Virus record (IMG/VR): IMGVR_UViG_3300042308_001616
Coordinates: 122,861-186,860 of that record
Reading direction: 5' to 3' (one strand)
DNA length: 64,000 nucleotides
Source of the DNA: a virus
The number at the start of each line of letters is the position of its first letter. Position 1 is the stretch's first letter. The position numbers were made by a program, and so were the translations under genes. Positions 7,626 through 61,657 of this stretch are shown one piece after another. The notes below the pieces were generated by a model that saw only the letters and a program-made list of their open reading frames with translations, was not told the origin of the DNA and did not search any database.

Positions 7626-8594
7626 ATGTCTGATAACAACATGAGCGAGGAAGACTACCTCAGAATACATTTGGAGGACCTCGAAAGGAACAAAAGGACA
7701 CCGGAACAACCGGAACCAACAAATCACATATCAAGTGACATACCTTTTAACACAAACACTGGTAACTCAGAAAACACAAAGGTAAGTGACCTTCAATACT
7801 TCCATTTTGACATCAAAGAACTACCATGTGGTCAATTCTATCCACAAGGAACTGTACTTATGATTAGACCTGCACAGGTTAGGGAAATACAAGCATATTC
7901 GATGGTAGATGATAATAACTTCTATGATATAGTAGAGAAAATGAATGATATGCTACAATCGTGTGTTAGAGTAAAATATGTAGATGGTAAGATAGGCTCT
8001 TTTTTAGATATAAAGGATCAGGATAGATTATTCATTATCTTCGCAATAAGAGAACTTACATTCCAACAAGGAAACTCACTAAGTGTAAATACTAAATGTG
8101 GATCTTGTGGAATAGAGGAAACGGTAGAATTGAAAAGAAGTAACTTTGCATTCCACGAGATTGACGAAAAACTAGCAAAGTTTTATAACAAAAACGCAGG
8201 ATGTTACCAATTCAAAACCATCAACGGTAAAACATTTGAACTAACACCACCAAACATCGGTTTACAAAAAGCATTTACTGACTACATCATAAAAGAAAAC
8301 AACGACAAAAGGAGTCCGAATTTGGCATTCCTTAAGATAATACCTTTTATGTTAGGTGGAAGATCTAGTATAACATACGAAGGAATAAAGGCAAAACTAA
8401 GAGAATTTGAAGAGATAGATGGAACTTCTTTTCAGTTCTTAAATAGTGCAGTAGGGAAAATGACTTTTGGTATAAAAGAGTTAAGTAAAACGTGTCAGTG
8501 TGGTGAGGAGATCCGCACTGAAATGCAATTTCCCAACGGAGCCTCAGGTATTTTCGTTATTCATGATGCCTTTGAAGCATATATTAAAGAATAA
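7626..8594 (+). CDS. Baseplate protein, T4 gp26-like
   Basis: 322 residues with a disordered, polar N-terminus (1-55) followed by FDIKELPCGQFYPQGTVLMIRP, a pattern I associate with T4-type baseplate hub proteins related to gp26. Two Cys pairs (CGSC near residue 158 and CQC near 290) could form a zinc ribbon, with the strands between them making a beta domain. Family members act in baseplate or hub assembly at the tail tip. Its location between sheath and tube genes supports a tail role. A tatata box lies about 20 bases upstream of the start. The identification is from motif memory, so the exact T4 counterpart is uncertain. Confidence 0.6.
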   Translation: MSDNNMSEEDYLRIHLEDLERNKRTPEQPEPTNHISSDIPFNTNTGNSENTKVSDLQYFHFDIKELPCGQFYPQGTVLMIRPAQVREIQAYSMVDDNNFYDIVEKMNDMLQSCVRVKYVDGKIGSFLDIKDQDRLFIIFAIRELTFQQGNSLSVNTKCGSCGIEETVELKRSNFAFHEIDEKLAKFYNKNAGCYQFKTINGKTFELTPPNIGLQKAFTDYIIKENNDKRSPNLAFLKIIPFMLGGRSSITYEGIKAKLREFEEIDGTSFQFLNSAVGKMTFGIKELSKTCQCGEEIRTEMQFPNGASGIFVIHDAFEAYIKE

Positions 8595-8634
8595 ACTACT
8601 TTTACAAAAACACTTCAATACACAGGAGGATTCT

Positions 8635-8811
8635 ATGGATAGATGGCCGTTCTGGATGCTTGAAGAGAATATAAAAATAGTGAACGAAATAGTAGAAGAA
8701 GAGGAAAAACAAAGAAAGCAAGAAGAAGAAGGACAAAGTGCAAGTATGCCAGATACAAATGCAATGATGAGAAATGCATCGAATATGACGGCAAATATGC
8801 CAAAAATATAA
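8635..8811 (+). CDS. Small acidic protein after gp26-like gene
   Basis: 58 residues beginning MDRWPFWMLEENIKIVNEIV, then a Glu/Lys/Gln-rich helix and a Met/Asn-rich tail. The start was chosen because AGGAGGA (8624-8630), a rare true Shine-Dalgarno sequence here, lies four bases upstream. The same frame is open back to 8500, overlapping the gp26-like gene, and reads plausibly (LLLQKHFNTQEDS) just before this ATG, so a longer product or a +1 frameshift fusion with the gp26-like protein is possible. It ends at a strong terminator. Probably a tail assembly partner; function unknown. Confidence 0.6.
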   Translation: MDRWPFWMLEENIKIVNEIVEEEEKQRKQEEEGQSASMPDTNAMMRNASNMTANMPKI

Positions 8812-8890: not shown

Positions 8891-9532
8891 TTAGTATCCA
8901 CTGACCATAGGTCCAGATATACCAAATCCGTTGTCAATATACTCATCTACGAAGTAGTCGTATAAGAAAGTAGCATCAACGTTATTCACGATATCATTTG
9001 AAGCCCAGTCTAGTGCCCACCCTGTAAGTTTAGACATTTGACAGTTCATAAATGTAACTCTTCTCAATACAACACCTTTCTTATCGTGTTGGTTAACAAT
9101 TATAGTTCCAACCATATCACTTTTATAGTGTAAAGTACCATTTTGTGAGTTGAATAAAAGGTCATACCATGCCTTAAGAGTCGTCCATGTAGTCATCTGA
9201 CCCGCATTGTTAACGTTAACCTGGAAAGGTATGGTAATCTCACCACTGGTTTTACTCGGTGTTGTTTGAAATTGTCTCGTTGAATACTTGAATCTTTGTT
9301 CTTTGGCAGCAACCTCGAAAGATGTTAGGTTAGATAAATCTATCTTAGTCGCATTCTCGAGAAGCAACAATTTGTTTGCTCCTGTATCGTAGGGTGTTCC
9401 TGCAAAAATAGTAGGAAGTACAAACGTAATCTCGAATAAGTTTGTGTAAACAACTTCATCCGTCGTAGTTGGTGAACCTGGTCCACCAGGTGAACCAACA
9501 TTCGATAATTGGGTATAATGCGGTAATGGCAT
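8891..9532 (-). CDS. Tail tube protein (T4 gp19-like)
   Basis: This is the subunit of the inner tail tube through which DNA passes. Diagnostic stretches are NLFEITFVLP near residue 31, the KYSTRQFQTTPSKTSGEI strand, and the C-terminal half with TLKAWYDLLFNSQNGTLHY, MVGTIIVNQHDKKG and RRVTFMNCQMSKLTG, which follow the gp19 tube fold. At 213 residues it is a little longer than T4 gp19 (163), mainly through a Gly/Pro/Thr-rich N-terminus. The upstream 183-bp gap is shared with the divergent nuclease gene and contains an ATATATA box. In T4 sheath and tube genes are adjacent and co-oriented; here they are not. Confidence 0.88.
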   Translation of the reverse strand: MPLPHYTQLSNVGSPGGPGSPTTTDEVVYTNLFEITFVLPTIFAGTPYDTGANKLLLLENATKIDLSNLTSFEVAAKEQRFKYSTRQFQTTPSKTSGEITIPFQVNVNNAGQMTTWTTLKAWYDLLFNSQNGTLHYKSDMVGTIIVNQHDKKGVVLRRVTFMNCQMSKLTGWALDWASNDIVNNVDATFLYDYFVDEYIDNGFGISGPMVSGY

Positions 9533-9715: not shown

Positions 9716-10840
9716 ATGAAAGTTTATATGATAACCGATACACATTTCGGAATTTACCTAAACAACTTAGACAAATGGCAAAATATGATGGAGTCAACAT
9801 TCTACGACTTTGTTATACCGTATCTCAAAGAAAATGTAGAAGAGGGAGACATATTGATACACCTTGGTGACTTATTCGATAACAGGACAAGTATACCCAT
9901 AATAACATTAAATAAAGTAGAGAAAATTCTAAAAGAAATAAGTGAAATACTACCAATACATATAATGGTTGGAAATCACGATTTATTCAATAAGGGATCA
10001 AATGATATAAACTCAGTAAGACTCTTTTCTTACATATCAAAAAGCATTAGTGTTTATGAAAACACAACAACGTTAAATATAGACAACCAAAAGTTGGTAC
10101 TAATGCCGTGGATTGAGAAGAGATTAGATATGGTAAAATCATTAAAAGAAAATCCAGGTGATTACTTATTTTGTCACTCCGATCTAAATGGGTGCAAAAT
10201 GCACCTAAACTCTGTTGCACATAGAAATCCAGATAAAATTGAGGTAGAGCAATTCAAAGGCTACAAAAAAGCATTCTCTGGTCACATACACATCAGACAA
10301 ACTAGTGAAAACTTCGAATTCATCGGATCACTTTACCAGATGGATAGGAATGACTCAGGAGACCAAAAGGGAATAACCGTATTAGACCTATCTACGGGAA
10401 AAACACACTTTGAACCGAATAAATATTCACCAGTTTTTCGTAAATTCAGGGTAGTAGACGAACAATCTATAGATGATTTGGATGGACTAAAAAATACCAA
10501 AGATTACATCGACCTCGCTATATCTAACAACCTTCTCGTAAGTAACAGAAAACTTCGAAGAAAATTGGAAGCAATGCTCGAAAAAGGTAACTTTGCATCA
10601 GTTGAATACATCGACGATATAGTAAAAACCGACGAAAACGGAGAAGTTATCAACGAGCAGGTAATAGATAACAACTCTACAGGAATAGACATATCTATAC
10701 AATTAGACTACGAGGTATACATAAGAGAGTATATTGAAAAACTTACATACGATAACGAAAAATACAAAAACGGAATAGCAGGAGAGTTCGACGAAGTTAT
10801 AAAAATATACAACGAGAACTATAAACCGAAAAACGACTAA
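9716..10840 (+). CDS. SbcD/Mre11-type exonuclease subunit (T4 gp47-like)
   Basis: The nuclease subunit of the gp46-gp47 recombination complex, which resects DNA ends during recombination-dependent replication. All calcineurin-like phosphoesterase motifs are present: DTH (8-10), GDLFDNR (51-57), GNHD (86-89), H154 in FCHSD, and GHIH (189-192), which together bind the two metal ions. The N-terminal ~220 residues are the catalytic domain; the rest is a charged capping and partner-binding region. At 374 residues it is close to T4 gp47 (339). The gp46 ATPase partner is not in this window. The next gene faces it and the stops are three bases apart. Confidence 0.93.
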   Translation: MKVYMITDTHFGIYLNNLDKWQNMMESTFYDFVIPYLKENVEEGDILIHLGDLFDNRTSIPIITLNKVEKILKEISEILPIHIMVGNHDLFNKGSNDINSVRLFSYISKSISVYENTTTLNIDNQKLVLMPWIEKRLDMVKSLKENPGDYLFCHSDLNGCKMHLNSVAHRNPDKIEVEQFKGYKKAFSGHIHIRQTSENFEFIGSLYQMDRNDSGDQKGITVLDLSTGKTHFEPNKYSPVFRKFRVVDEQSIDDLDGLKNTKDYIDLAISNNLLVSNRKLRRKLEAMLEKGNFASVEYIDDIVKTDENGEVINEQVIDNNSTGIDISIQLDYEVYIREYIEKLTYDNEKYKNGIAGEFDEVIKIYNENYKPKND

Positions 10841-10843
10841 TTT

Positions 10844-11620
10844 CTATCTCCTACCACCACCAAACTGGTATCCGAAACGGAGCTGCCATACCCACGATAG
10901 TGGAGTAGTTCCGTCCGGACCAGGATAAAACTGAACTCCACCCATCGGTGTCAATGTGAATGAATTAGAGTAGTCACTGTCATTTCCAATTACGATAAAT
11001 TTATTACCTAAGTCAACACCAAAACCAAAACCACCAAACGGTGAAAGTCCGTCTCCCCAGAAACGACCATAACCCATTCTTCCCTGTAAGAATGCACCCT
11101 CACCAGATGTGTTTTGAACAAAATAGAACCTAGTAAATATCTCTGGTCGGACACCCACATAGTAATAACTAAGTGTGTAAAAACTTAAAACTCCACCTAC
11201 TGTCCAATGTTCAGTACGTGTATCAGACTCCCACTCTACTCTGAACTTAGAGACCGACATTTCACTTAATTTAACTCCCATCGAAACAGAAAGATGACCT
11301 AAGAAATTGTATGTATATCCATGATGTACTGACGATGATGTTGTCAATGGAAGGTTAATTCTACCAGCCGGCTCCGGAATATCCGAAGTAGAAGAAAGTC
11401 TCTTAGTATTATAAACACACGCGATTACAACTGGATCAACTTTCTCATATGGACAACTACCAACTGTGTCTATATTATAAATTTTATATTTAGGAACCTC
11501 AATAGAAGGATACTCAACAGACCATTTCATATTTGGTCTAAGTTCAATTGACTGACCTCTCAGTGTAAATACGGTAAATGTGGCTAATAATAGTGCCAAC
11601 AACCACGAAATCAACTTCAT
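10844..11620 (-). CDS. Exported protein, probable outer-membrane beta barrel
   Basis: 258 residues with a clear signal peptide (about 1-23: MKLISWLLALLLATFTVFTLRGQ, with a likely cut near the Gly-Gln). The mature part alternates hydrophobic and polar residues and is rich in Gly, Phe and Tyr, with strands such as GRMGYGRFWGDG and a final WVWQLRFGYQFGG, as in outer-membrane beta barrels of Bacteroidota. No enzyme motif. It heads a group of exported proteins, so it may alter the infected host surface, for example for superinfection exclusion or uptake. The barrel call comes from composition and pattern only. Confidence 0.65.
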   Translation of the reverse strand: MKLISWLLALLLATFTVFTLRGQSIELRPNMKWSVEYPSIEVPKYKIYNIDTVGSCPYEKVDPVVIACVYNTKRLSSTSDIPEPAGRINLPLTTSSSVHHGYTYNFLGHLSVSMGVKLSEMSVSKFRVEWESDTRTEHWTVGGVLSFYTLSYYYVGVRPEIFTRFYFVQNTSGEGAFLQGRMGYGRFWGDGLSPFGGFGFGVDLGNKFIVIGNDSDYSNSFTLTPMGGVQFYPGPDGTTPLSWVWQLRFGYQFGGGRR

Positions 11621-11724
11621 AACTAAAAATAATTATTTTTATCATAATTATATATTTAGTAATGAAACATAATTATTTCATAAGTGTTGAAAAATCAATA
11701 ATTTTGACTATGTTGAAAAAAAAA

Positions 11725-12120
11725 TTAAATTTTTCTACAAACTCGAAAAACAACAACCGGATAGGGATATGGTTGTCTGTCAAACCAATCAAACCTAGAT
11801 CCACCACCAACAGTCATATTAAGTGAGCCATAGTTCCAAGACTTTGAGAAATATATCAAACTACGCCATCCACCAACAGAAGGAATCATCTGAAGTCCGT
11901 GTGCAGCACCAATAGACCAATCGTCATATATTCTGAAACTACTACCAAACCAGGCACCAAAAACACCAACACCTAACTCCGGTTTTATTCTTCCATTATA
12001 AATTGAATACTCCACAGAAATACCGGCAGGAAGAACACCACCAACACCATAAGAAAGTCTTGCTTGACCAAAAGATATAAACGAAGTCAATAAGAATAAC
12101 AACAAAAGACGCATAATCAA
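11725..12120 (-). CDS. Small exported beta-rich protein
   Basis: 131 residues with a signal peptide (MIMRLLLLFLLTSFISFGQA, likely cut after the FGQA). The mature part is Gly/Tyr/Trp-rich with amphipathic strand patterns, resembling a short outer-membrane beta barrel or a fragment of one. Its start overlaps the stop of the upstream lipoprotein gene (ATGA at 12117-12120), so the two are coupled. About 100 A+T-rich bases separate it from the next exported gene. Function unknown; an outer-membrane location is inferred. Confidence 0.6.
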   Translation of the reverse strand: MIMRLLLLFLLTSFISFGQARLSYGVGGVLPAGISVEYSIYNGRIKPELGVGVFGAWFGSSFRIYDDWSIGAAHGLQMIPSVGGWRSLIYFSKSWNYGSLNMTVGGGSRFDWFDRQPYPYPVVVFRVCRKI

Positions 12121-12677
12121 TACTTTATTTTTATAAAAATGTCATGTGGTGCTGTCTCATCACCACCAAAATAAGGCCAAAGGTAATACCTACTACCAGA
12201 AACATTATGCCATCTCTGCATATGTACGGTTATTGGATTGACACCATCCAAACACGTGAATGTGTAATCATCACCAAGCGAAATACTACACGTATATTGT
12301 TTCCCTATCTCCAAATCACAAACCTTTTCAAAATGAAAAATACCATTTAGATGTGTATAAGACATCAGTTCGAGTTTACCATTCAACCAACGCCATCCAA
12401 AACGAGCAGAATTCCTAATATGTAAACCACCATCACTTACACCAAATAGTTTATTGACATCATATTGATTTATCGGGTCGACGGTTGTATAAATAGATGT
12501 ACTATCGAAAACAACATCGAATGTTATTATGTCTTTCCTAGTCCACTCTAGCGAGTTTGATGATGAATGATCACCCGAATCGATACGGAAGACAGACCAC
12601 CCAGAGTCGTCTTTTTTATTACAACCCAATAAAATAAAGGAAAGTAACAAAACATATATTATTTTAAACATAAACAA
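12117..12677 (-). CDS. Lipoprotein with Bacteroidota-like surface-export signal
   Basis: 186 residues. A type II signal peptide ends in the lipobox LLGC with the lipidated Cys at 19, followed by NKKDD. In Bacteroidota a Lys followed by acidic residues just after the lipidated Cys (lipoprotein export signal) sends lipoproteins to the cell surface, so exposure is likely. The mature protein is beta-rich with many aromatic residues and may be lectin-like, but no family was recognised. It is coupled by ATGA overlap with the next exported gene. A TATATA box lies between it and the divergent rightward gene. Confidence 0.7.
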   Translation of the reverse strand: MFMFKIIYVLLLSFILLGCNKKDDSGWSVFRIDSGDHSSSNSLEWTRKDIITFDVVFDSTSIYTTVDPINQYDVNKLFGVSDGGLHIRNSARFGWRWLNGKLELMSYTHLNGIFHFEKVCDLEIGKQYTCSISLGDDYTFTCLDGVNPITVHMQRWHNVSGSRYYLWPYFGGDETAPHDIFIKIKY

Positions 12678-12719
12678 TACGTTTTTTTTTCATATTATAT
12701 AGTAAAAAAATATCTCTAA

Positions 12720-13097
12720 ATGAAGACAAAGTTATTACTCGCACTATTTGTAATTGGAATCGCAATTGCAGCATATGTAGATCTTAGTAAGAAAGATCCT
12801 GAATGGACACCAAGTACTTGCAATAAAGGATTAGAAAGTTCAGTACATCAAAGAGAAAAGGATGGAACATGGGTGGTTGGTATAAAGAATAGATATCCAG
12901 ATGAGTTGAAGACATTTGTAAACATACACACTTCTACGAATGACATAACACAGGTAGTAAGACTAAGACCTGCTGAGACAATCTACCTCGATGCAAGTAA
13001 AATTAAAAATCCAGAAGAAGTAAAAGTTAAAATAGGTCCATCATTCATTGTTAAAAATGATACAACAACCACATTGGTAATCTGTGACAGAAAATAA
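12720..13097 (+). CDS. Small membrane-anchored or secreted protein (copy 1)
   Basis: 125 residues. Residues 4-20 form one hydrophobic segment (LLLALFVIGIAIAAYV) that may be a signal peptide or an anchor; there is no lipobox Cys. The mature domain has two Cys residues (33 and 122) that could bond in the periplasm. It resembles the next protein in layout: a Trp/Cys start, then a KDGTWVVGI strand matching KQNGVWSFEL, and a final Cys near the C-terminus. They look like diverged tandem duplicates. Function unknown. Confidence 0.65.
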   Translation: MKTKLLLALFVIGIAIAAYVDLSKKDPEWTPSTCNKGLESSVHQREKDGTWVVGIKNRYPDELKTFVNIHTSTNDITQVVRLRPAETIYLDASKIKNPEEVKVKIGPSFIVKNDTTTTLVICDRK

Positions 13098-13102
13098 TTA
13101 AA

Positions 13103-13504
13103 ATGATGGATACCATTAAGTACTTTTTTTATAAAATCGTAAAGGTCGTACTAATAATATTAGTTATGGCATTTATATATGCTGCGTGTGATAGTATCTT
13201 CGGAAAAGAAGATCCTAAGAATACCTGGTATTGGGCAGACCAATGTCTACAAGACAGAATAACATACCGTGCCTGGAAACAAAATGGTGTCTGGTCATTC
13301 GAACTTGCCAACGATATGAAAGGTGATGTTATGATTACTTATGAGATTATCGGTGATAAGATCGATGAACATACACAGATAATAAAATCTGGTGATTCAT
13401 CTGGTATATTACCGGTGGATTCAGAGGAATGTCCAAAGGTAACAATTGTTTCAGTTGTTATGATGAAGTATGGAAAACCAGACTACATACTAAATTGTGA
13501 ATAG
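13103..13504 (+). CDS. Small anchored protein, possible lipoprotein (copy 2)
   Basis: 133 residues starting ATGATG (either codon could serve). Residues 12-28 are hydrophobic and end in YAAC, a weak lipobox with Cys at 29, so it is either a lipoprotein or a single-pass membrane protein. The outer domain has Cys residues spaced like those of the preceding protein, its likely paralogue. The stop lies two bases before the ATG of the next gene, indicating one operon. No family recognised; a place in the host envelope is inferred from the N-terminus and neighbours. Confidence 0.65.
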   Translation: MMDTIKYFFYKIVKVVLIILVMAFIYAACDSIFGKEDPKNTWYWADQCLQDRITYRAWKQNGVWSFELANDMKGDVMITYEIIGDKIDEHTQIIKSGDSSGILPVDSEECPKVTIVSVVMMKYGKPDYILNCE

Positions 13505-13506
13505 TG

Positions 13507-13845
13507 ATGAAATTAGACGAGACAGATGAAATAATAAAAGACAAAATCAACGAGATAATGTCTGGTGAGTGGGACTCGAACTTCGAACCCGAGCAACTCA
13601 ATATGCTGAAACGTAGGTCTTTCTTACTTAATAATATTAGCCAGAATGGTGCAGACATAACATTTGAGTGGAACGGAAACAAAATAAACGTACACAACAG
13701 CGACATAGTCGAACTGAGTATGTTCTGGGCTGACACATTCAACCACATCGTGTCGTCAATCATGTCGGATCCAATTTTCATAAACGCATATAACGCGTTC
13801 TCTCGTGAATGGAAGATAGACGGACTTCTCAAAAATAAAAAATAA
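13507..13845 (+). CDS. Small soluble protein ending in KIDGLL motif
   Basis: 112 residues. ATG at 13507 was chosen over a GTG three bases earlier. It has a charged helical N-terminus, a short strand pair (ADITFEWNGNKINVH) and a C-terminus SREWKIDGLLKNKK. The ending matches a K-I-D-E-L-L pattern seen at or near the C-termini of at least five other small proteins in this window. No known family. It is packed between its neighbours with almost no spacing, so it belongs to the same transcription unit as the two anchored proteins. Confidence 0.7.
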   Translation: MKLDETDEIIKDKINEIMSGEWDSNFEPEQLNMLKRRSFLLNNISQNGADITFEWNGNKINVHNSDIVELSMFWADTFNHIVSSIMSDPIFINAYNAFSREWKIDGLLKNKK

Positions 13846-13849
13846 TGCA

Positions 13850-15226
13850 ATGATAAAACTTATTATATTTGATATGGATGGAGTTCTCGTAAATGCCAAA
13901 GAAATACACTACGAGACGTTGAATAACGCCATAGAGTTGATTGTTGGTAAAAAATTCACAATAGATTTTTCAGAACACCTATCAACGTACGATGGTCTAA
14001 AAACTACACAGAAGTTAGATATGTTAAGTGAGAAGAAAGGACTTAATAAATCAGAACATCAGAAAATATGGGACATAAAACAAAAACTAACACAAAAAAG
14101 TATTGGTGAAATTGGTCAGAATAACGAAATTATTTCATTAGTAAGTTGGCTCAAAGAAGAAGGATATATACTAGCGTGTTGTTCAAACTCAATAAGGAAA
14201 ACAATATTTTTAGCATTATCTAGGATTGGTATTATAGAGTATATGGACCTAATACTCTCCAATCAAGATGTACAGAGAGGGAAACCATATCCAGAAATTT
14301 ACTGGAAAGCAATGAGTAATTTAGGATACTTACCAGAAGAAACACTAATAATTGAAGACTCACCTACAGGATTATTAGCAGCACATAGATCCGGTGCCAA
14401 TATACTCAGAGTTGATAATCCATCACAAGTTCGAAAATCAAAAATCGATGAAGTAATATCAATGATAAATAAAACAAATAATATGAAAAACCCAAAGTGG
14501 AGAAATGATAAATTGAACGTACTCGTACCGATGGCCGGTGCAGGTACTCGTTTCGAAAAAGCAGGATATACATTTCCAAAACCTCTAATAGAAGTAAACG
14601 GAAAACCTATGATACAAGTTGTTGTAGAGAACTTAAACATAGATGCAAACTACATATATGTCGTACAAAAAAGTCACAGAACTAAATACAATTTAGACAC
14701 TCTTTTGAATCTAATAACTCCAAATTGTAGAATAGTGGAGGTAGAAGGAATAACAGAAGGTGCGGCATGTACTGCACTTCTCGCTAAAGAATTAATTGAT
14801 AACGACGAACCACTTTTCTTTGCTAACTCAGATCAGTTCGCAGAATGGGACTCAAATGAGTTTATGTACAAAATGACAGAGACCAATTGTGATGGTGCAA
14901 TTGTCACTTTCAAAGCTACACACCCAAAATGGTCATTTGCCAAATTAGATGATAATGGATTTGTTACAGAAGTTGCGGAAAAAAATCCTATCTCAGAAAA
15001 CGCAACGGTCGGATTCTACTATTGGAAGAGAGGTTCGGACTTTGTGAAGTATGCAGAGAGTATGATAGATAAAGATATACGTGTAAATAACGAGTTCTAT
15101 GTTTGTCCTGTTTTCAATCAAGCGATTGATGACGGTCTAAAAGTCAGAACATTCGAAATTAGTAGAATGTGGGGACTCGGAACACCCGAAGATTTAAACC
15201 ACTACCTAAATCATCATACAGAATGA
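13850..15226 (+). CDS. HAD phosphatase fused to sugar-type nucleotidyltransferase
   Basis: A two-domain enzyme. Residues 1-210 are a HAD hydrolase of the beta-phosphoglucomutase type: FDMDG with D8 and D10, CCSNS near 111, K145 in RGKPYPE and EDSPTG with D170. Residues 222-458 are a GT-A fold nucleotidyltransferase: PMAGAGTRF (227-235) for the nucleotide phosphates, FPKPL with K244, and FANSD for the metal. Such fusions make activated sugars or polyols for surface polysaccharides, so a dephosphorylation plus NDP-sugar synthesis role is likely; the substrate cannot be read from sequence. An ATG at M212 could give the second domain alone. The stop overlaps the next start (ATGA). Confidence 0.85.
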   Translation: MIKLIIFDMDGVLVNAKEIHYETLNNAIELIVGKKFTIDFSEHLSTYDGLKTTQKLDMLSEKKGLNKSEHQKIWDIKQKLTQKSIGEIGQNNEIISLVSWLKEEGYILACCSNSIRKTIFLALSRIGIIEYMDLILSNQDVQRGKPYPEIYWKAMSNLGYLPEETLIIEDSPTGLLAAHRSGANILRVDNPSQVRKSKIDEVISMINKTNNMKNPKWRNDKLNVLVPMAGAGTRFEKAGYTFPKPLIEVNGKPMIQVVVENLNIDANYIYVVQKSHRTKYNLDTLLNLITPNCRIVEVEGITEGAACTALLAKELIDNDEPLFFANSDQFAEWDSNEFMYKMTETNCDGAIVTFKATHPKWSFAKLDDNGFVTEVAEKNPISENATVGFYYWKRGSDFVKYAESMIDKDIRVNNEFYVCPVFNQAIDDGLKVRTFEISRMWGLGTPEDLNHYLNHHTE

Positions 15227-16079: not shown

Positions 16080-16329
16080 GTTTTATTTTTAAATCACCAG
16101 TTCCTTTTATAAGTCGGTGATAAACACCCATTGGTATGAATACTTCTCCTTCTATTTTCATCGGAAGTTGATTATCTAATTGAATACCCCAATCAGTATC
16201 ACCAATTGATTCAATTACACGAGATTCAAAATCTCGATGCCACATAAACTCACCGGAGTCAGTATCCTGACTAAACTCTCTGATAAACGTATTATCACTT
16301 ATTTTAGTTTCTTGAAATGGAAGTGTCAT
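16060..16329 (-). CDS. Cupin-like small protein
   Basis: 89 residues. ATG at 16329 overlaps the stop of the upstream gene (ATGA), so it is preferred over an ATG 12 bases earlier. The sequence (FMWHRDFESRVIESIG, WGIQLDNQLP, EVFIPMGVYHRLIKG, LKIKLKK) resembles a short, conserved phage protein with a double-stranded beta-helix (cupin-like) layout, in which WHRD and YHR may supply metal or sugar ligands. Function unknown. Its first ten codons (MTLPFQETKI) are repeated almost perfectly 456 bases upstream. The stop lies inside the terminator hairpin. Confidence 0.7.
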   Translation of the reverse strand: MTLPFQETKISDNTFIREFSQDTDSGEFMWHRDFESRVIESIGDTDWGIQLDNQLPMKIEGEVFIPMGVYHRLIKGTGDLKIKLKKMPL

Positions 16330-16330
16330 A
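16298..16330 (-). repeat. 33-bp direct repeat, copy 1
   Basis: Covers the start and first ten codons of the cupin-like gene. It is identical to 16754-16786 except at one base (16318 versus 16774). The two copies bracket the ParB-like gene. Confidence 0.95.
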
Positions 16331-16745
16331 CACCAACCCACGCTTTAATTTTATCCTGTAATTCACTAACAGCAACCGCTCTATGAGCACCGTCTATAAT
16401 TCTATAATCCTCATCGACAACTATTGGTGGATAATCACCGGTTTCCTCTATAATACTTTTGTATTCCAGGACACTATCCTCGTTGATATAAAACTCATCC
16501 AAGTCTATTTGAGATATAGATAATTCAGTAAGTTTGTATATTTCAAATTCTTCTATTCGGTCACTCAAATCACCATCTATAAAAGCACCTTCATAATCAT
16601 CGTGTAAATATTGAACATAGTTGTAGATATATTCCTCTGAGATTTTATCACCAATCTTGGCATTGTACCAACATTTATTCAAATCAGCTCTACTCTTCAA
16701 CTTCTCGTTTGCTTCAAATATTTTATATGTCTTCAAATGTCTCAT
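16326..16745 (-). CDS. Tagged ParB/sulfiredoxin-like protein
   Basis: 139 residues. The N-terminus MRHLKTYKIFEANE is the shared tag, nearly identical at DNA level to that of the next upstream gene. The C-terminal 35 residues (YPPIVVDEDYRIIDGAHRAVAVSELQ) match the ParB/Srx core, where the DGxHR motif binds a nucleotide or phosphate; proteins of this fold include nucleases and CTP-dependent clamps. The middle is acidic. The gene lies between two copies of a 33-bp direct repeat, as if inserted with duplication of the neighbour's start. If the tag acts as a capsid targeting sequence, this would be an ejected DNA-interacting protein. Confidence 0.75.
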   Translation of the reverse strand: MRHLKTYKIFEANEKLKSRADLNKCWYNAKIGDKISEEYIYNYVQYLHDDYEGAFIDGDLSDRIEEFEIYKLTELSISQIDLDEFYINEDSVLEYKSIIEETGDYPPIVVDEDYRIIDGAHRAVAVSELQDKIKAWVGV

Positions 16746-17596: not shown

Positions 17597-18169
17597 TTAC
17601 CAAAAGCCGGGATAGGTACGGCCGTTCCACAAATGCGAGTAGCGGTTAATTCTGCATGCCCAGTACCCTGCTTTTGTTTTATCTTTTTTATCTTTACAAT
17701 TATGACGCGCAGAAAATGCCTTTCTTGCCTTAGGATTAGATACCTTAGCAGTTAATCCACCATGAACATCACCAAAAGCAATCTTTTTTACTTTACCGGT
17801 CTTAGGATTCTTAACATAAACGTGGTACTTCTTAGTTCCACCTCTCATAGGATGGTTCAGTTTAACTTCTCTACCTTTGTATTCCGCCTCATTCATCTCT
17901 TCAACAGTCTCCATCGGAAGATCCAACGGAACTATCTCACCATCAAATTCGACAAACTTACCTAAATCTGTACTCTCAAAAAGATATTTATCCAATCCAC
18001 TAAATATAACTTCACCAGAATCAAATAATAATCTAGCCTCTTTTATGAGTTCAAGAAAGGAATCAGATCCAGGTCTAAAAACATTTTCAACAACAGATAT
18101 ATTATTATCAAGGTGATAATTCAATTTCTCAGAAACTAAAAAATTATTGAATTTCTTTATATAATTCAT
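17597..18169 (-). CDS. Tagged protein with basic Cys-containing C-terminal domain
   Basis: 190 residues. Tag: MNYIKKFNNFLVSEKLN. The acidic middle is followed by a strongly basic C-terminal domain (about 100-190) with RGGTKKYHVYVKNPKTGKVKKI, FGDVHGGLTAK, ARKAFSARHNC, GYWACRINRY and a final YPGFW. This domain is one I recognise as recurring in tailed-phage genomes (ARHNC...KTKAGYWxCR), with two Cys that may bind zinc; its function is not established. The tag plus a basic domain suggest a DNA-associated protein packaged in the head. It is followed after 11 bases by another tagged gene. Confidence 0.75.
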   Translation of the reverse strand: MNYIKKFNNFLVSEKLNYHLDNNISVVENVFRPGSDSFLELIKEARLLFDSGEVIFSGLDKYLFESTDLGKFVEFDGEIVPLDLPMETVEEMNEAEYKGREVKLNHPMRGGTKKYHVYVKNPKTGKVKKIAFGDVHGGLTAKVSNPKARKAFSARHNCKDKKDKTKAGYWACRINRYSHLWNGRTYPGFW

Positions 18170-36491: not shown

Positions 36492-37108
36492 AAAATATAA
36501 TAAATGAATGTGAACGGCTCGCCCAGGAGACTGGCGAGCCTCACTTCGTTCTGGACTGGAAAACTTTACACGAGATAAAGAAGAAAACTGCCGAAAATAA
36601 AGAGGATAAAAGAGAAGCTGATCTCGAAGAGATCCTCGACGAGCAGGAATATGAAATAGGTGACTGGACAACCGTTCAACAGATGCCATCTATGGAAATA
36701 TTCTACGATAGTGTTTCGAAGCTCACCGAGCAAAAGGACAGAATGCTTTGGGCCATACGAAGACTCGAGAGGCTAGGTTTCAAAAAAAACTCAATATTTG
36801 ACCTAATCGACGAGGAAGACAGAGACGTATTACAAACGAACTTCAATATGGAGTTCTCGATGAAGATTGAACTCGAATACGGAGACTTCATAAGCGCCAC
36901 AATATCACCGAACCTACTTACCAAAATCAAACATTTCTCCACCATCGATAGCTCCAAAACAACAATCGGTCACGAGATGATATTCAGGGAGATATACCAC
37001 GGATACCTGATAACGGAAGACATCATCGAGGCAATCACCAACAAAGTGAAAGCCGAGTCGATGAAACCAATCGTAAGGGATATCAAAATAAACGAGCTGT
37101 TAGACTAA
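36473..37108 (+). CDS. Soluble protein ending in KINELL motif
   Basis: 211 residues. The N-terminal 75 are acidic and helical; the middle (SKLTEQKDRMLWAIRRLERLGF) is a helical hairpin, followed by a mixed domain and the C-terminus PIVRDIKINELLD, which fits the K-I-D/N-E-L-L ending shared by several small proteins in this window. A perfect 8-bp G+C-rich inverted repeat lies inside codons 15-23. It ends 9 bases inside the convergent tagged gene. No enzyme family recognised. Confidence 0.65.
   Translation: MDTKYLENIINECERLAQETGEPHFVLDWKTLHEIKKKTAENKEDKREADLEEILDEQEYEIGDWTTVQQMPSMEIFYDSVSKLTEQKDRMLWAIRRLERLGFKKNSIFDLIDEEDRDVLQTNFNMEFSMKIELEYGDFISATISPNLLTKIKHFSTIDSSKTTIGHEMIFREIYHGYLITEDIIEAITNKVKAESMKPIVRDIKINELLD
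36516..36540 (+). promoter_or_regulatory. Perfect G+C-rich hairpin inside 5' coding region
   Basis: GGCTCGCC (36516-36523) and GGCGAGCC (36533-36540) pair perfectly around the loop CAGGAGACT. Nothing like it is seen elsewhere in coding sequence here. It lies 43 bases downstream of the ATG, so it may pause ribosomes or serve as a protein-binding RNA hairpin; no T tract follows, so it is not a terminator. Confidence 0.5.
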
Positions 37109-37783
37109 GTAGTTCCTAAGTGCAGATCCAACATCGGGCGACTTATTCTCCTTATTCATATACTCGAAGAAACAACGATGTGACAAAATGTCCTGTACCT
37201 CGTTGACACCAAACCTGCTGATACTTTCGAAAACTTGGCAATCGTGATGAGTTATGTAAATCTGGTCATCGAAAGACCAGGGTGTTCCATATGCAGAGTC
37301 GTAAACTGTCCTCGACCTCAAACTTTGCCTTAACGGACTCAGATCCGACACCGGTAAATAGTCAAAACTTATGACAAGATTATCGCGTACTGCCTTTTTA
37401 ACATAATCAAACTTCCATTTAACATCATAAAGAGAATAGAATAACCAACTAAAGGGATGTTCTCGGAAAACACGAGCTATCTTATCACCATATTTATCAA
37501 TCGGTATGAGATTCACCTTTCCCCTTTCACATATGACAAGTCTATGACCGACATCTTGACCATTCTCATAGAGCTTACCGCAGTCGAACGCATCTAGATC
37601 TAGGTAGGAAAGCCTCTCCTTCAGCTCGACTAACCGGTCGCCGTCCATATCCTCGCACTGCCAAACCTGAATGTCTTGCCAAGTCCGTACCAGCACAGGC
37701 GACTCCGAAACCGAAAGGATCAAATCCTTTATCTCCGAGTCACGTTCCGACCCGAAATACTCAAACATCTTAATATACCTCAT
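37100..37783 (-). CDS. Tagged protein, unknown function
   Basis: 227 residues starting MRYIKMFEYFGSERDSE, a clear copy of the shared tag. The body is richer in G+C than the flanks and mixes helices and strands (RLVICERGKVNLIPIDKYGD, FREHPFSWLFYSLYDVKWKF). No recognised domain. TATATA box 37788-37794 lies only four bases before the ATG on this strand, so the predicted transcript start falls at or inside the start codon. It overlaps the convergent neighbour by 9 bases. Confidence 0.7.
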   Translation of the reverse strand: MRYIKMFEYFGSERDSEIKDLILSVSESPVLVRTWQDIQVWQCEDMDGDRLVELKERLSYLDLDAFDCGKLYENGQDVGHRLVICERGKVNLIPIDKYGDKIARVFREHPFSWLFYSLYDVKWKFDYVKKAVRDNLVISFDYLPVSDLSPLRQSLRSRTVYDSAYGTPWSFDDQIYITHHDCQVFESISRFGVNEVQDILSHRCFFEYMNKENKSPDVGSALRNYLV

Positions 37784-40466: not shown

Positions 40467-41081
40467 ATGAAGCATATTAAAAAATACGAAAGCTTTTCTG
40501 TTAATGAGGAATTACAATTGTTTAATTTTGCTGCAGCTTTGAAAAAATTAGTTTCTATGTCAGCGGATGAAATCAAAGCAAAGTTTCCTGGTATAGATAA
40601 AGCTGTTGAAAAACCTGAGGTTAATGCAGTTTTAAGTAATCAAGATATAGATGCCGCAGATTTCAGTGATCCAAATGCAAGTGGACAATTAAGTAGTGTT
40701 GCAGGTGATTTAGAAAAACAAAGTGAATCTAAAATCAATGAAAATATTTTCATTGATAAGTTAAAAAGTATTTGGAATAAAGTAAAAGCACCTGCAGCAT
40801 TAGTTTCTGCTGCGGCTGCATTAGCTCCAATCTTTATGGGTATGAAGGATTTTGTCACTAACGTTCCAGCTGATACTTTCAAATTTCTTGGTTTCAACGA
40901 TTATGATGCGGGTGGTCAAAGTTTTACTGGATTAGGTTTTGCTGCAATGGTTTATGCAGTTGCTGCATTAGCATTTTTTGTCAAAAAAGGTTTAGTAGAT
41001 AAACAAGTTGCTGCTGAAACTACTGCTCCTAAAAAACCAGTCAATGTGGTTAAGAGAGACAAATATGGTAGACCAATCTAA
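40467..41081 (+). CDS. Tagged membrane protein
   Basis: 204 residues. Tag MKHIKKYESFSVNEELQ: KKYESFSVNE aligns residue for residue with T4 KTYQEFIAE. After an acidic soluble region (35-100) there are two hydrophobic segments (about 110-130 APAALVSAAAALAPIF and 155-175 FAAMVYAVAALAFFV) and a Lys/Pro-rich tail. A membrane protein packaged in the head could insert in the host envelope on ejection; alternatively the tag has another use. It ends at a strong terminator. Confidence 0.7.
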   Translation: MKHIKKYESFSVNEELQLFNFAAALKKLVSMSADEIKAKFPGIDKAVEKPEVNAVLSNQDIDAADFSDPNASGQLSSVAGDLEKQSESKINENIFIDKLKSIWNKVKAPAALVSAAAALAPIFMGMKDFVTNVPADTFKFLGFNDYDAGGQSFTGLGFAAMVYAVAALAFFVKKGLVDKQVAAETTAPKKPVNVVKRDKYGRPI

Positions 41082-50416: not shown

Positions 50417-51013
50417 TTACTTTTTTTTCTTTTTCCTTTCTTTGGCAGCCTTTGCCTTTGTCCATAATTCAGAGTCTGCTTTCCTTGCACCACCTGAACC
50501 AGTAATGAAACTATTCACTCTACCAAATGCCCATTGATGTTGTGCAACACCAGGTCTGTGTCCAGCGTTCCACGCTTGCATTCCTTTAGAGAAAACTTTT
50601 CTAAGAATACCTACCGGTATTCCAGATGCTTCAGATTTCTTTTTTAATGATTTGGCAACACCTGATTTTTTTTTTTCATCGATACTCTCTAACCAGTAGA
50701 GCTCATCGTTGAAAGATTCGAAGCAAAGTATCCTACTCTCCTCGAGAGAGTCATCTATCTCTTCATCATTCCTTTTATCAACACCTTTGTTGTGTTCAAC
50801 ATCGTCTGCCATAGCTTTGTAAAGTTTCGTAATCTCTTCTTTATTCATTGGTTTTCCGTCTTCATCACCATCGATGAAACCATCAGGGAAACCACCAACA
50901 ATCTCTATCTCATCCTCAAGTTCTTCAACACTTTTACCTTTGGTCTTACCGAAGTCGTCAATATTTTTCCATCGGTTTATTTCCGAATCTTTAAATTCTC
51001 TGAGGTATCTCAT
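50417..51013 (-). CDS. Tagged protein with basic C-terminal domain A
   Basis: 198 residues. Tag MRYLREFKDSEINRWK. The middle is acidic; the C-terminal 85 residues form a basic domain (KKKSGVAKSLKKKSEASGIP, LRKVFSKGMQAWNAGHRPG, HQWAFGRVNSFITGSGGARK, then a KKKKK end). This is a domain I recognise as recurring in tailed-phage genomes (AKSLxKKxxxSGI...GHRPG), function unknown. The strong positive charge suggests DNA binding, consistent with packaging beside the genome. Nine bases separate it from the upstream tagged gene, so they form an operon. Confidence 0.75.
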   Translation of the reverse strand: MRYLREFKDSEINRWKNIDDFGKTKGKSVEELEDEIEIVGGFPDGFIDGDEDGKPMNKEEITKLYKAMADDVEHNKGVDKRNDEEIDDSLEESRILCFESFNDELYWLESIDEKKKSGVAKSLKKKSEASGIPVGILRKVFSKGMQAWNAGHRPGVAQHQWAFGRVNSFITGSGGARKADSELWTKAKAAKERKKKKK

Positions 51014-51022: not shown

Positions 51023-51592
51023 TTATTTTTCTTTATCACCAAACATCTTTTGGTATGCTTTGGTTGCAGCAGACTTTTTCGTCTTCACCCTTTTACCTTC
51101 ACCACCTTTTCCAGATGTATAATCAGCATCCCAATCTTTTTTATATGTCTTTTTGCCTCTAAAAGTGTCAATCTCTTTTTTCATCTTACCTGGGTTTTTA
51201 GTAAGGTATTTTCCAGGTATTTTATGACCTTTATAGCGTTGAGATTTTGACTTCTCTTCTACACCTTCTGGCATTATAACTTTTAGGTCAGATTCTATAA
51301 GCTCCATAGCATCCTCTAATGAGTCTACATTTTTTTTGAAGTCTACTCTTCCACCGAAAGTTTTTTCAACAAATAAATCATCTACATCGAGATCATATTT
51401 TACGGCAACATCTTGCCAAACAAAATCGAGAACTACATGATGATCGTCAGTACTACTCCATTTGTATACAAACTCACCCACAACAGATTTAGAGACTAAG
51501 TCCCTTATTCTCTCCATACGTTCCTCGACGTAATCTGAGCCCACGAAGCCACCGCCCTGAACGAACTCGTAGAATTTCTTTATTTTTGACAT
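51023..51592 (-). CDS. Tagged protein with basic C-terminal domain B
   Basis: 189 residues. Tag MSKIKKFYEFVQGGG. The acidic and hydrophobic middle resembles a small mixed domain; the C-terminal 70 residues (QRYKGHKIPGKYLTKNPGKM, KKEIDTFRGKKTYKKDW, SGKGGEGKRVKTKKSAATKA) are a second conserved basic phage domain, known from other phages with no assigned function. With the neighbour at 50.4 kb and the protein at 17.6 kb it makes a class of tagged basic proteins. TATATATA is four bases before the ATG. Confidence 0.75.
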   Translation of the reverse strand: MSKIKKFYEFVQGGGFVGSDYVEERMERIRDLVSKSVVGEFVYKWSSTDDHHVVLDFVWQDVAVKYDLDVDDLFVEKTFGGRVDFKKNVDSLEDAMELIESDLKVIMPEGVEEKSKSQRYKGHKIPGKYLTKNPGKMKKEIDTFRGKKTYKKDWDADYTSGKGGEGKRVKTKKSAATKAYQKMFGDKEK

Positions 51593-55637: not shown

Positions 55638-56174
55638 ATGAAATGGATAAAACTATACGAGGAGTTCACCAACGACAGTATGCAGGATTTGTTAACCGAT
55701 GCTCTCGAAGAGGAAATAAAAGCGGTCATAAAAAAAAATGGTCACTTCTCAGCAAAAGACTATTACGCACTCATGAAGTCTAGGAAATTAGACGATAGGA
55801 TGGCAGATGAAATATTCCACGACTTAGTCGGTAGAGGAATCGGATTCAGTGATGGTGAAGAAATAATTATCGAAGACGAACAATTCATATTCCACTTTGA
55901 AAAAATACAAAGACAGGGAGAAGAGACATATTATTGGGGAACTCTTTATTGTCCAGACTACACTTATGGTGGTGAAGAAGATGAACAAGAAACTATACCG
56001 GGTGAATTATATGGTAGATTTGTCGCATTTGAAGACGGACCGACAATGTTAGATTTCGAAGGACCAAATGATCTTACCGTATATGATTTCTGTGAAGGAC
56101 TCGAACATGAGTTAGACAACTTTGCAGAATACGCTGTTGATGAAATAAATAAAAAAATAAATAATAATGGATAA
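55638..56174 (+). CDS. Tagged acidic protein
   Basis: 178 residues. Tag MKWIKLYEEFTNDSMQ: KLYEEF aligns exactly with T4 KTYQEF. Residues 20-75 are helical (DALEEEIKAVIKKNGHFSAK, with a turn FHDLVGRGIGFSDG that resembles a winged-helix-like segment); the C-terminal half is acidic and Tyr-rich. It overlaps the next tagged gene by 8 bases. A TATATA box lies 6 bases upstream of the ATG. Function unknown. Confidence 0.7.
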   Translation: MKWIKLYEEFTNDSMQDLLTDALEEEIKAVIKKNGHFSAKDYYALMKSRKLDDRMADEIFHDLVGRGIGFSDGEEIIIEDEQFIFHFEKIQRQGEETYYWGTLYCPDYTYGGEEDEQETIPGELYGRFVAFEDGPTMLDFEGPNDLTVYDFCEGLEHELDNFAEYAVDEINKKINNNG

Positions 56175-57193: not shown

Positions 57194-57901
57194 CTAAAAA
57201 CCTTCATCATCCACATCCGGATCGTGAAATGGTGAGTAGAAAATATTATCTTCTGATGGTGTTACCGGAAGTCCGCACTCGGCCAAAAGAGGTATAAATA
57301 CTTTGTCAGTCTGACCAAGAAGTAGACCTAAGTAGAAAGAAAATGGCCAACAAATCTCATAGTTGATGTAAACGGTTCTATAATTTTTTCTTTCTAACGA
57401 AATATTGTTATTTTTCATTAGATGATATGCCTCGTTTCTGTAACGGAAGACGTATTCATCATTGTTATAGTAGACAATCCACTTCCACTTTGCTTTATCA
57501 TCTGGATTTGCCTCAATATTTTCATCTTCGTATGGATCAACAACCTCCTTTTTTGTAAGCCCTTTTAACTTTTCAACTATGAATTTAGAACAAGCATTCA
57601 CAATGTCAGTTCCTCTGTAAAGTGTTATCGAGTAACGGTTCTTCCACATCTTCGTAATTGAAATATTATAACCGAGACTTTCGAACATATCCCTGTAGTT
57701 TTCTATGTGATGATCAAACTTCCAGTAGAACCCCTTCACAACGTCGTTCTCGTTCGGAAACTCAATCTCGTAGACTTTTAGTATATCACTTCCTTTGAAG
57801 AAGTCAATCTCTTTGAAACCGTCGGCACCTGTCTCATCAACAAAGTGTGAAAGTATCTGTTCAATCTCGTTGAACTCCTCAAATAACTTTATGTACCTCA
57901 T
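57194..57901 (-). CDS. Tagged protein, paralogue of next gene
   Basis: 235 residues. Tag MRYIKLFEEFNEIEQIL, the best match to the T4 tag (KLFEEFNE versus KTYQEFIAE). The middle shares a layout with the upstream neighbour: YxxLxESLGYNIxxT, then a strand run and a helical acidic segment (TDIVNACSKFIVEKL versus TMLQAATEWLKEVY). The C-terminal half diverges and ends acidic (HDPDVDDEGF). Start and upstream stop share base 57901. Function unknown. Confidence 0.7.
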   Translation of the reverse strand: MRYIKLFEEFNEIEQILSHFVDETGADGFKEIDFFKGSDILKVYEIEFPNENDVVKGFYWKFDHHIENYRDMFESLGYNISITKMWKNRYSITLYRGTDIVNACSKFIVEKLKGLTKKEVVDPYEDENIEANPDDKAKWKWIVYYNNDEYVFRYRNEAYHLMKNNNISLERKNYRTVYINYEICWPFSFYLGLLLGQTDKVFIPLLAECGLPVTPSEDNIFYSPFHDPDVDDEGF

Positions 57902-59764: not shown

Positions 59765-61657
59765 TTACACCATTCTCAGGAGTATCCATCTTTTGTAGAG
59801 TTCCTCACCCGGCTCCGGCATCTTAAGCAACCTCGTCATATCCAGACTGCCGAACACCTGACCGATCCTAGGATGGTTCTCGTAGCAAGCAGCGGCGTAC
59901 CTGGCTTTCCCAACCATCACTTTCGCATCCTCTTCACTCAGATTCAACCTCGACCTCAGGTCAGGCTTTGTCTTCTCGTCACCGTATATCCTCGAGGCTA
60001 CGTTACTCACCGCACCCTTGCTACGCCCGTCGAACCCACCGCCATACAGATAAACTATAAAGGCGGGCACAAGATCCGTCAGGCCGGTGGTCACGAACTC
60101 TTTGTTGTCCATTCCTATATCACAGTATGTCGCGTATTCGTAGTGAATACCCTTGAAAAGATCTTTCACAAAGTCTTCAATCGAGACCGAATATCCTTTC
60201 CACTCAACCAGCATCGACTCGGTGTCCTCCCTGAGCATCAGCTTGTCGAACTTGCCGCTGTCACTTCTGGCAACGCCGTTCTGCACGTATTCCCTCTTCA
60301 GCTTGCTCTCGACCTCCTCGCGGTCGAAGGTGAACTCCTTATCGATCGGGTCGTAGGTGTAGTCCTTGGAGTAGTACTCGCCGTCGACCTTCACGTAGAG
60401 CGCGACCTCATCCTTGTGACACCAGTCCGTGTTGCCCTCCTCGTCGACAATCACCTCGATGGCATCGTCCTCCGGAATCCAGTCGCTCATCATCTCGGAC
60501 TTGACGGTGTCCTCCTCGAGGTATGTGTTGCCGTCGAACTCGCAGTACCTTGTGTTTGCCCTGTCGGAGACGTAAACGTCCCTGTATTCGAGCCAGGTCG
60601 CGTGGTCGGCCGTCACGTAGTCGTCTATGTCATCGCAGTAGAATGCGTCGTCGACCGGAATCCAGTCGTCGAGGTATTCCGAACGCCTGAACTCCTCCTC
60701 GAGCGACGGCCCTTCGCCGTGTGTCGACTGCAGGTACAGAACGTTATCGGTGTAGGTGGGAATTGACTTGGTAAGCGTGCCTTCCTCAGTGTCGTAGTAC
60801 TTGAAGGTGTCCATGTAAGGGTACTTCCCGTAGTCCTTAGCCTTCACCTCGACCGTAGCGTTTGCCGGTGCGACCGGTGTCAGACCGTAGCTGTAGTCTA
60901 TCTTGTTGGTCTTTCCCCAGTCGTAGAACTTACCGATGTTGGCGTTCGTGTCGACGCAGTAGACGCGGTCCATGTAAGTCTTCCCGTCGTCAAGCGTCCA
61001 GATTAGCGCTCGACCCATCGTCTTACCTTCTTTGTCGAGCATGACCAGTAGCTTCACAACATCCGGGTTCTCGGTGTAAATACCGAAGAAGCCGGCACAA
61101 TCGGGCTTCCTCATGCAGGATCCGTGCAGCGAGTCGTTGCCTGAGTAGTCCTTTTTGTCGACGAAGCTGCTTTCCAGGTACCTCCTCACTATCTCTACAC
61201 CCTGTACGACCTCGAAGGTGTGAGAGTCTCCTTTCTGTGCTAGGTCGTACTCCACCCTGTAGGCGTTTACAAATAGTTCGAGCTCTGCACCAGGTACCTC
61301 TTTGTCAACGTTTTTCATCACCATCTGTGCAAATTTACCAATCGCATACTCTGGTGTTCTTCCTTCACTCCAATATTTGTTTGTCTTATCAGGTCTTTCA
61401 CCATCGGGGTGAACTTTTAAGTATCTGTTGGCTTGTACAAATGACACTTTGTCGTTTTTATCAGTTATGTCTATAAGTGAATAGGGGTATTTCGACTGAC
61501 CACCTGTTTCCTGTAGTATTAATACACCAGCCACTCTTTCAGCAGTTCCGTTATATTTTTCATAAATAAATTTCAGTATGTTCCTGAATTGGTCGGAATA
61601 ATAGAGTTGCATACCTTTTGTAGAACTCTCGATAATAAAGTCTTCGTATCTTAACAT
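59765..61657 (-). CDS. Tagged SCMR-type protein with acidic repeats, G+C-rich core
   Basis: 630 residues. Tag MLRYEDFIIESSTKG: RYEDFIIE-S aligns with T4 TYQEFIAE-A including the cleavage position. The N-terminal 250 residues contain SLHGSCMRKPDCAGFFGIYTENP and LIWTLDDGKTYMDRVY, a domain found in large phages with no known function. Residues 310-430 hold repeats around DDWIPxDDA with Tyr/Asp/Cys-rich turns, possibly metal-binding. Codons for about the last 500 residues are G+C-rich (one sampled 60-base line at 60.7 kb is 63 percent), in contrast with the first 340 bases and the flanks. TATATAT is four bases before the ATG. Confidence 0.75.
   Translation of the reverse strand: MLRYEDFIIESSTKGMQLYYSDQFRNILKFIYEKYNGTAERVAGVLILQETGGQSKYPYSLIDITDKNDKVSFVQANRYLKVHPDGERPDKTNKYWSEGRTPEYAIGKFAQMVMKNVDKEVPGAELELFVNAYRVEYDLAQKGDSHTFEVVQGVEIVRRYLESSFVDKKDYSGNDSLHGSCMRKPDCAGFFGIYTENPDVVKLLVMLDKEGKTMGRALIWTLDDGKTYMDRVYCVDTNANIGKFYDWGKTNKIDYSYGLTPVAPANATVEVKAKDYGKYPYMDTFKYYDTEEGTLTKSIPTYTDNVLYLQSTHGEGPSLEEEFRRSEYLDDWIPVDDAFYCDDIDDYVTADHATWLEYRDVYVSDRANTRYCEFDGNTYLEEDTVKSEMMSDWIPEDDAIEVIVDEEGNTDWCHKDEVALYVKVDGEYYSKDYTYDPIDKEFTFDREEVESKLKREYVQNGVARSDSGKFDKLMLREDTESMLVEWKGYSVSIEDFVKDLFKGIHYEYATYCDIGMDNKEFVTTGLTDLVPAFIVYLYGGGFDGRSKGAVSNVASRIYGDEKTKPDLRSRLNLSEEDAKVMVGKARYAAACYENHPRIGQVFGSLDMTRLLKMPEPGEELYKRWILLRMV

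Follow-up and report, generated by a model that had tools for sequence, protein, structure and literature searches.

We analysed a 64,000-nucleotide stretch of viral DNA (the window; bases 122,861-186,860 of the 248,751-base virus record IMGVR_UViG_3300042308_001616) and identified, within a run of five open reading frames (ORFs) with hydrophobic N-termini, a lipoprotein gene whose product belongs to a family that, by sequence, is shared by phages and mostly Bacteroidota cells and is absent from Pfam, NCBIfam and PHROGs. What the sequence shows directly is the family, the lipobox and the ORFs with their signal peptides; the fold of the lipoprotein is predicted. We consider it quite possible, if short of probable, that the protein is a glycan-directed, perhaps catalytic, outer-membrane lipoprotein that alters the surface of the host. 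An earlier note, made from the letters of the window, had described an exported module at this place; its observation was largely right and its idea of a host-envelope module reasonable, and what is added here is the family, the predicted lyase-type fold, the spread in phages and the company of other exported proteins.

Predicted fold of the lipoprotein

The AlphaFold model of the lipoprotein, built with the family alignment (mean predicted local distance difference test (pLDDT) 92.3, predicted template modelling score (pTM) 0.85), consists of a signal helix followed by an all-beta domain, a predicted beta jelly roll. With Foldseek against the PDB, the top match was an alginate lyase of polysaccharide lyase (PL) subfamily PL7C (8r43, E 8.8e-7). 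VIA-align 2 placed the PL36 enzyme Aly36B at the top (6kzk, Z 13.6, 2.5 Å over 155 residues), with the PL14 enzyme vAL-1 of a Chlorella virus (3gne) at Z 12.7 and PL7 enzymes at Z ~12, while glycoside hydrolase family 16 (GH16)-type and other jelly rolls trailed at Z 11-12. The likeness to Aly36B, vAL-1 and PL7 extends over nearly the whole mature lipoprotein (Z ~12-13.6, 153-168 residues); unlike these enzymes, the window lipoprotein is smaller and lipid-anchored, is ~6-16% identical to them, and has no weighty match to a sequence family. The best match in a viral structure library was H9YSE3 (E 2.3e-12, 22% identity).

Among the 123 aligned members of the family described below, PF21294 (PL14) was weakly matched by 5 (best E 0.003) and PF08787 (alginate lyase 2) by 2, also weakly (best E 0.058). 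Lyases were not among the PDB sequence matches. The arrangement Lys ... Ser-x-Arg ... Tyr-x-Tyr found in the family presumably recalls the active sites of PL14. An attempt to map PL14 residues through a genome search gave one match below the cut-off in 10 genomes and was dropped. Mutated residues given in the titles of the Aly36B entries are K143, M171 and Y185, and PL36 catalysis is reported, in the excerpt of PMC8618178, to employ a Lys where others use Tyr. The family has an invariant Lys as well, K76, and its comparison with the catalytic Lys of PL36 is a lead only. Cip1, which has a related, vAL-1-like fold, showed no convincing lyase activity according to the excerpt of PMC3764139.

The lipoprotein family and its origin

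The window lipoprotein had no meaningful match in Pfam (no family at E 1), NCBIfam or PHROGs, and no description of its family was found in literature searches, which is not proof of absence. The family was collected from a three-sequence alignment, and loci were fetched by patterns on NQYDVNK/DPINQY and RFGWRW. It is carried by 49 viral loci and by 131 cellular stretches, mostly of Bacteroidota, 80 of which were kept. The cellular relatives are mostly lipoproteins of Cytophagia and Chitinophagia, mainly from Pontibacter, Rufibacter, other Hymenobacteraceae, Cyclobacteriaceae and Chitinophagaceae. Among 296 genomes taken from the phylum to which G001 belongs, at least 5 gave a profile match, a lower bound because only 11 first-look candidates were scored in most of these genomes. 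The earlier note had called such a set unusual in a lytic phage. Since phage copies of the lipoprotein are numerous, "unusual" needs tempering; a lytic phage is consistent with the record, as no tyrosine integrase was found in its 248,751 bp.

After removal of duplicates, the alignment had 123 rows, in all of which F57, Y63, K76, G79, S90, R92, G94, W95, W97 and the FGG at 170-172 were identical; R96, Y138, Y169, P177 and H178 were nearly invariant. K76, R92, W95, R96, W97, Y107, YFGG and APH make up a dense conserved set of polar and aromatic residues, and S90-x-R92 and Y107-x-H/Y109 are conserved alongside K76. One member found by the profile and lying outside the sequence patterns (L166) keeps K, R, GWRW, AYxY, YFGG and APH and loses S90.

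In the full 123-row tree, six viral rows without a signal peptide formed a long-branched group, and the phage rows required four changes, of which starred branches force two. The window copy fell within a cellular clade in this tree, together with L062 (95/91 and 94/82). A second tree was built without eight rows, namely these six, L062 and L125; here the window copy joined the 33 main phage rows (SH-like approximate likelihood ratio test (SH-aLRT) 92.7) on a long end branch. A separate capture of the window copy from Bacteroidota was rejected, because its placement changes once the eight rows are dropped.

Two of the loci, L013 and L053, lie on apparently the same 83,794-base contig, found once as a viral contig and once within a single-cell genome of Prochlorococcus; presumably the virus was co-sorted with the Prochlorococcus cell. 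Positions 7770-8726 of the window showed 75-77% DNA identity with two uncultured phages of ~640 kb (LR756502 and LR745206), and a relative of the lipoprotein is present in a third uncultured phage, LR756504.

Lipoprotein signal and export motif

The N-terminus of the lipoprotein reads SFILLGC followed by NKKDDSGW. Of the 114 rows without a gap at this site, 112 keep the lipobox Cys, so the lipobox does not arise by chance, and the lipoprotein that the earlier note had read from LLGC and NKKDD is upheld. By its sequence it is a genuine lipoprotein of the Bacteroidota type.

The earlier note had also likened the residues after the Cys to the export signal that places lipoproteins on the surface of Bacteroidota. 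The Lys/acid motif is indeed present; its register is not the optimal one. In the excerpt of PMC5080379, the optimal surface signal of Capnocytophaga canimorsus is C-X-K-(D/E)2-X at +2 to +6 with an overall negative charge. The window tail, C-N-K-K-D-D, shares with the lipoprotein export signal (LES) of C. canimorsus the Lys at +3 and acids nearby, and differs from it in an extra Lys at +4, acids at +5/+6 rather than +4/+5, i.e. one residue off, and a net charge of 0. The same excerpt reports that export was less efficient when KDD was shifted toward or away from the Cys, and that other Bacteroidota have different consensus signals (SDDDD, SDDFE). The strict C-X-K-(D/E)2 was found in 1 of 29 distinct phage tails, not that of the window, and in 0 of 69 cellular tails. 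Lys or Arg stands at +3 in 28 of the 29 phage tails vs 18 of the 69 cellular ones, a contrast that does not amount to 29 independent events since the phage tails share ancestry; one of the 29, from L049, probably carries a false Cys. Judged from these sequences, the export signal is a weak argument for placement on the surface.

Exported proteins around the lipoprotein gene

The five consecutive ORFs with signal peptides or anchors reported in the earlier note do exist (Table 1), and all have a hydrophobic N-terminal segment. Of the 70 ORFs called mechanically in the window, 9 were positive for a crude hydrophobicity flag, and five flagged ORFs in a run gave P ~7e-4 with random placements, which is approximate because the ORF set contains some antisense calls. 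The five genes do not form one operon, as the minus strand carries three of them (258, 131 and 186 aa) and the plus strand the other two; the lipoprotein gene is divergent from the 125-aa gene, with a gap of ~42 bp, and overlaps the 131-aa gene by 4 bp. Predicted promoters and terminators showed no excess compared to shuffles.

The barrel-like character previously given to two of the proteins proved weak: the alternation score against shuffles was z 2.0 for the 258-aa protein and z 1.7 for the 131-aa protein, and the match of the former to the Pfam family OMP_b-brl (PF13505, E 0.075) was below the cut-off. Searches found a single 97%-identical copy of the 258-aa protein among viral contigs and nothing else, and no relatives of the 131-aa protein. 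The 125-aa and 133-aa proteins, previously described as anchored paralogues, do have anchors, and their kinship is marginal at the sequence level: BLASTP found no similarity between them, whereas local alignment gave z 3.1 (reached by 0.95% of 2000 shuffles) and global alignment z 4.1 (reached by 0.05% of shuffles). Neither had viral relatives in the searches run, and the 133-aa protein is a single copy in its record.

Neighbours were drawn for 39 of the 49 viral loci, with the wrong ORF marked in L033. In 8 of these 39, an exported protein of 155-176 aa, of one family, is encoded directly upstream of the lipoprotein, and in 5 of the 8 the two genes overlap by 4 bp; this phage partner family occurs without the lipoprotein as well. 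The order in the window is reversed, with the lipoprotein first and the 131-aa gene next. In seven cellular loci from five genomes, small exported proteins of a different family, one or two per locus, are encoded just upstream of the lipoprotein, and the phage and cellular partner families show no match to each other. In the adjacency control on the cellular side, small exported genes numbered 9/30 at upstream position 2 on the same strand vs 79/583 for other genes; on the other hand, no raised share was seen at upstream position 1 (7/62, two being other lipoprotein copies). The 131-aa and 258-aa proteins were also considered as homologues of these exported neighbours, and this was rejected as the hhalign matches were either short or of low probability, with the signal peptide giving the best one. 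The A3 profile found nothing in the window's record.

Among 93 scanned neighbours of the cellular lipoprotein copies (35 loci), three belong to the SiaC family PF09345, whose regulators function in biofilm signalling. In several phages, a small membrane protein family with the pattern ...PGPV...EEY...WIPIWPV... is encoded near the lipoprotein gene or overlaps it.

Type IX secretion cargo in lipoprotein-bearing phages

Cargo of the type IX secretion system was searched for in the lipoprotein-bearing records of 23 of the 49 viral loci. The sorting domain PF18962 was matched (E 0.001) in 8 of the 23, 6 of them over the cut-off. In four of the eight, the cargo consists of long proteins with GCTDP-type repeats that are related to one another (805-946 aa as open frames); the M43 protease is encoded in two, and the remaining two have a 522-aa frame and a small protein of 121 aa, respectively. 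A 4-base overlap joins the lipoprotein gene of L003 to the gene for a 440-aa protein that has an M43 metalloprotease domain and a type IX sorting domain, the latter scoring 25.5 bits with TIGR04183 (cut-off 23) and 21.5 bits with PF18962 (below 27). Lipoprotein, upstream partner and cargo occur together in the records G307 and G327. In L023 (8550-10034, minus strand), a signal peptide-bearing phage subtilase (PF00082, 104.9 bits) adjoins a lone sorting-domain protein.

In the record of the window, 248,751 bp long, PF18962 was not matched, so a Bacteroidota host, which by sequence is the most likely one for this phage, is deduced from the relatives of the lipoprotein only. Type IX cargo has been reported for cryophages, and several lipoprotein-bearing records, likewise of phages encoding host-envelope proteins of Bacteroidota, extend what the excerpt of PMC7468147 describes. 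The cryophage cargo has C-terminal sorting domains, in contrast to the window lipoprotein, which is not cargo and whose record has no such domain.

Proposed role and alternative explanations

We infer that the cluster may serve a large phage as an accessory module directed at the envelope. The signal peptide would be cut between LLG and C and the Cys lipidated, so that the lipoprotein would sit in the outer membrane, where its mature jelly roll of alginate/glucuronan-lyase type might bind, and possibly cleave, an acidic polysaccharide of the cell surface or outside the cell. The exported proteins encoded next to it, which are perhaps small barrels, could keep it in place or help it. The most likely gain would be an altered glycan coat on the infected cell, so that either further phages would not adsorb or the progeny would not be trapped on debris. 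The receptor masking or superinfection exclusion suggested in the earlier note may be one among several options. As for its exported host-envelope module, the cluster and the Bacteroidota-type lipoprotein hold and the predicted lyase-type jelly roll fits an alteration of the host surface, with the export signal remaining the weak part. A bolder version, in which a new family of lipid-anchored polysaccharide lyases, shared by Bacteroidota and their large phages, would be used by the phages to remodel the infected cell's surface, as a cassette that also holds type IX cargo and small partners in the outer membrane, appears doubtful to us.

Several findings weigh against a glycan-altering lipoprotein of this kind. 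The predicted jelly roll is a lectin fold too and likeness of fold shows no activity; after PL7C, Foldseek ranked lectins and carbohydrate-binding modules (CBMs), and its matches included AAL, galectins, CBM66, CBM40 and laminin-G domains. Since other jelly rolls and lectins match too, the lyase link is the best one and not exclusive. None of the 123 members reached the cut-off of a lyase family, as judged from E-values. The invariance of the conserved residues is partly due to ascertainment because the search patterns sit on NQYDVNK/DPINQY and RFGWRW. With regard to location, the window tail does not fit C-X-K-(D/E)2-X, a consensus of C. canimorsus in a signal that varies between species, and six viral relatives (L045 and L047-L051) have no signal peptide. 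As to the partners, the counts of the adjacency control indicate that the cellular pairing is not general and concerns a subset only, and modelling of the phage partner family gave a poor result (pLDDT 38.7); as this model failed, "barrel" stays a description by sequence pattern.

The lipoprotein might instead be a non-catalytic, glycan-binding lectin that acts in masking or adhesion by covering or cross-linking the polysaccharide of the surface, which we regard as possible but rather unlikely. The commonness of the fold among lectins and CBMs (AAL, galectins, CBM66, CBM40) and the lack of a weighty lyase family match would suit such a lectin, whereas the top Z-scores belong to lyases and the conserved charged and aromatic residues cluster on few strands, as would suit an active site. 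An auxiliary gene is less probable still, by which the host would use or shed algal polysaccharide, or the biofilm matrix would be dissolved at release, with no blocking of other phages. It draws on the alginate lyases being the closest folds, on the SiaC-family regulators adjoining some cellular copies and on the secreted proteases encoded in other lipoprotein-bearing phage records; against it, no SusC/SusD or sulfatase set was seen among the listed neighbour families (25 of 133; 93 neighbours, 35 loci).

Changes in the surface of infected cells are well studied in coliphages, where small lipoproteins jam protein receptors. According to the excerpt of PMC9586334, Llp of T5 is a periplasmic outer-membrane lipoprotein that halts superinfection by binding FhuA, and Rtp45 is described in part of PMC12685063 as acting alike at LptDE. 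These two cases, which argue for a similar role here, show by analogy that a phage lipoprotein is able to modify what is presented at the host surface, with a different kind of protein. A superinfection exclusion of this type, in which a periplasm-facing lipoprotein jams an outer-membrane receptor, perhaps together with the adjacent exported proteins, seems to us improbable for the window. The imperfect export signal would permit retention in the periplasm, and the window protein is likewise a phage-encoded outer-membrane lipoprotein; however, Llp and Rtp45 are small, periplasmic and act on a protein receptor, Rtp45 being ~6 kDa in the excerpt of PMC12685063, while the window has a larger glycan-type domain, a jelly roll of ~167 residues after the Cys, with many cellular relatives. 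Since cellular bacteria keep the family, its basic job would not be phage exclusion. The Cor family (phrog_1119) was touched by 1 of the 123 members (E 0.0022), with no match for the window protein.

If the glycan-directed role proposed above were true, Bacteroidota phages would exploit the outer-membrane lipoprotein and type IX export routes of their hosts to act on glycans, the family would be a new carbohydrate-active one without a Pfam entry, and the loci would offer a concrete gene set for studying infection-altered surfaces of Bacteroidota.

Other features of the window

The features of the window and of the related loci are collected in Table 1.

Table 1 Features of the window and of loci bearing the lipoprotein family (window positions unless a locus is named)
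Feature	Location	Strand	Remark
Exported ORF, 258 aa	10844-11620	-	signal-peptide-like N-terminus; possible beta barrel with N-terminal extension
Exported ORF, 131 aa	11725-12120	-	signal-peptide-like N-terminus; possible small beta barrel
Lipoprotein ORF, 186 aa	12117-12677	-	signal peptidase II (SPII) signal, LLGC then NKKDD; starts at TTG, in-frame ATG at codon 3
Orphan ORF, 125 aa	12720-13097	+	hydrophobic N-terminal anchor
Orphan ORF, 133 aa	13103-13504	+	hydrophobic N-terminal anchor; possible divergent paralogue of the 125-aa gene
Tail-tube-like gene	8891-9532
gp47/SbcD-like gene	9716-10840		flanks the cluster
Short ORF	13504-13845		other flank of the cluster
Fused HAD phosphatase/nucleotidyltransferase gene	13850-15226		after the short ORF
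ORFs with the start M-x-x-I-K-x-F/Y-E-x-F-x-x-E	2422-2985, 16326-16745, 17597-18169, 37100-37783, 40467-41081, 50417-51013, 51023-51592, 55638-56174, 57194-57901, 59765-61657, 61721-62851
Upstream exported partner of the lipoprotein in viral loci	L002, L005, L008, L010, L012, L021, L036, L043		truncated L011 is a ninth
Small membrane proteins ...PGPV...EEY...WIPIWPV...	L003:1562-1891; L007:7726-8004; L033:1216-1455; L040:8540-8779; L041:598-843
SiaC-family neighbours	L057:4576-5001; L128:4584-4976; probably L122:4069-4482		which three, inferred from sequences
Phage-encoded type IX cargo	L003:7967-9289; L020:8807-11635; L169-L173; L023:10169-10534

Along its entire length, the product of the fused phosphatase/nucleotidyltransferase gene shares 57% identity with a Synechococcus phage S-CAM9 protein, whose gene lies near glycosyltransferase genes. 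Shine-Dalgarno sequences were too weak as a clue to the host (6/55 weak and 0 strong in the window, 1/55 in Pontibacter and 8/29 in cyanophage S-CAM9).

Many unrelated ORFs of the window have a similar start, roughly M-x-x-I-K-x-F/Y-E-x-F-x-x-E, that is also present in other phages (L016, L017 and L023). We take this start to resemble the capsid-targeting sequence of the internal proteins of T4, and the ORFs sharing it could encode proteins packaged in the head.

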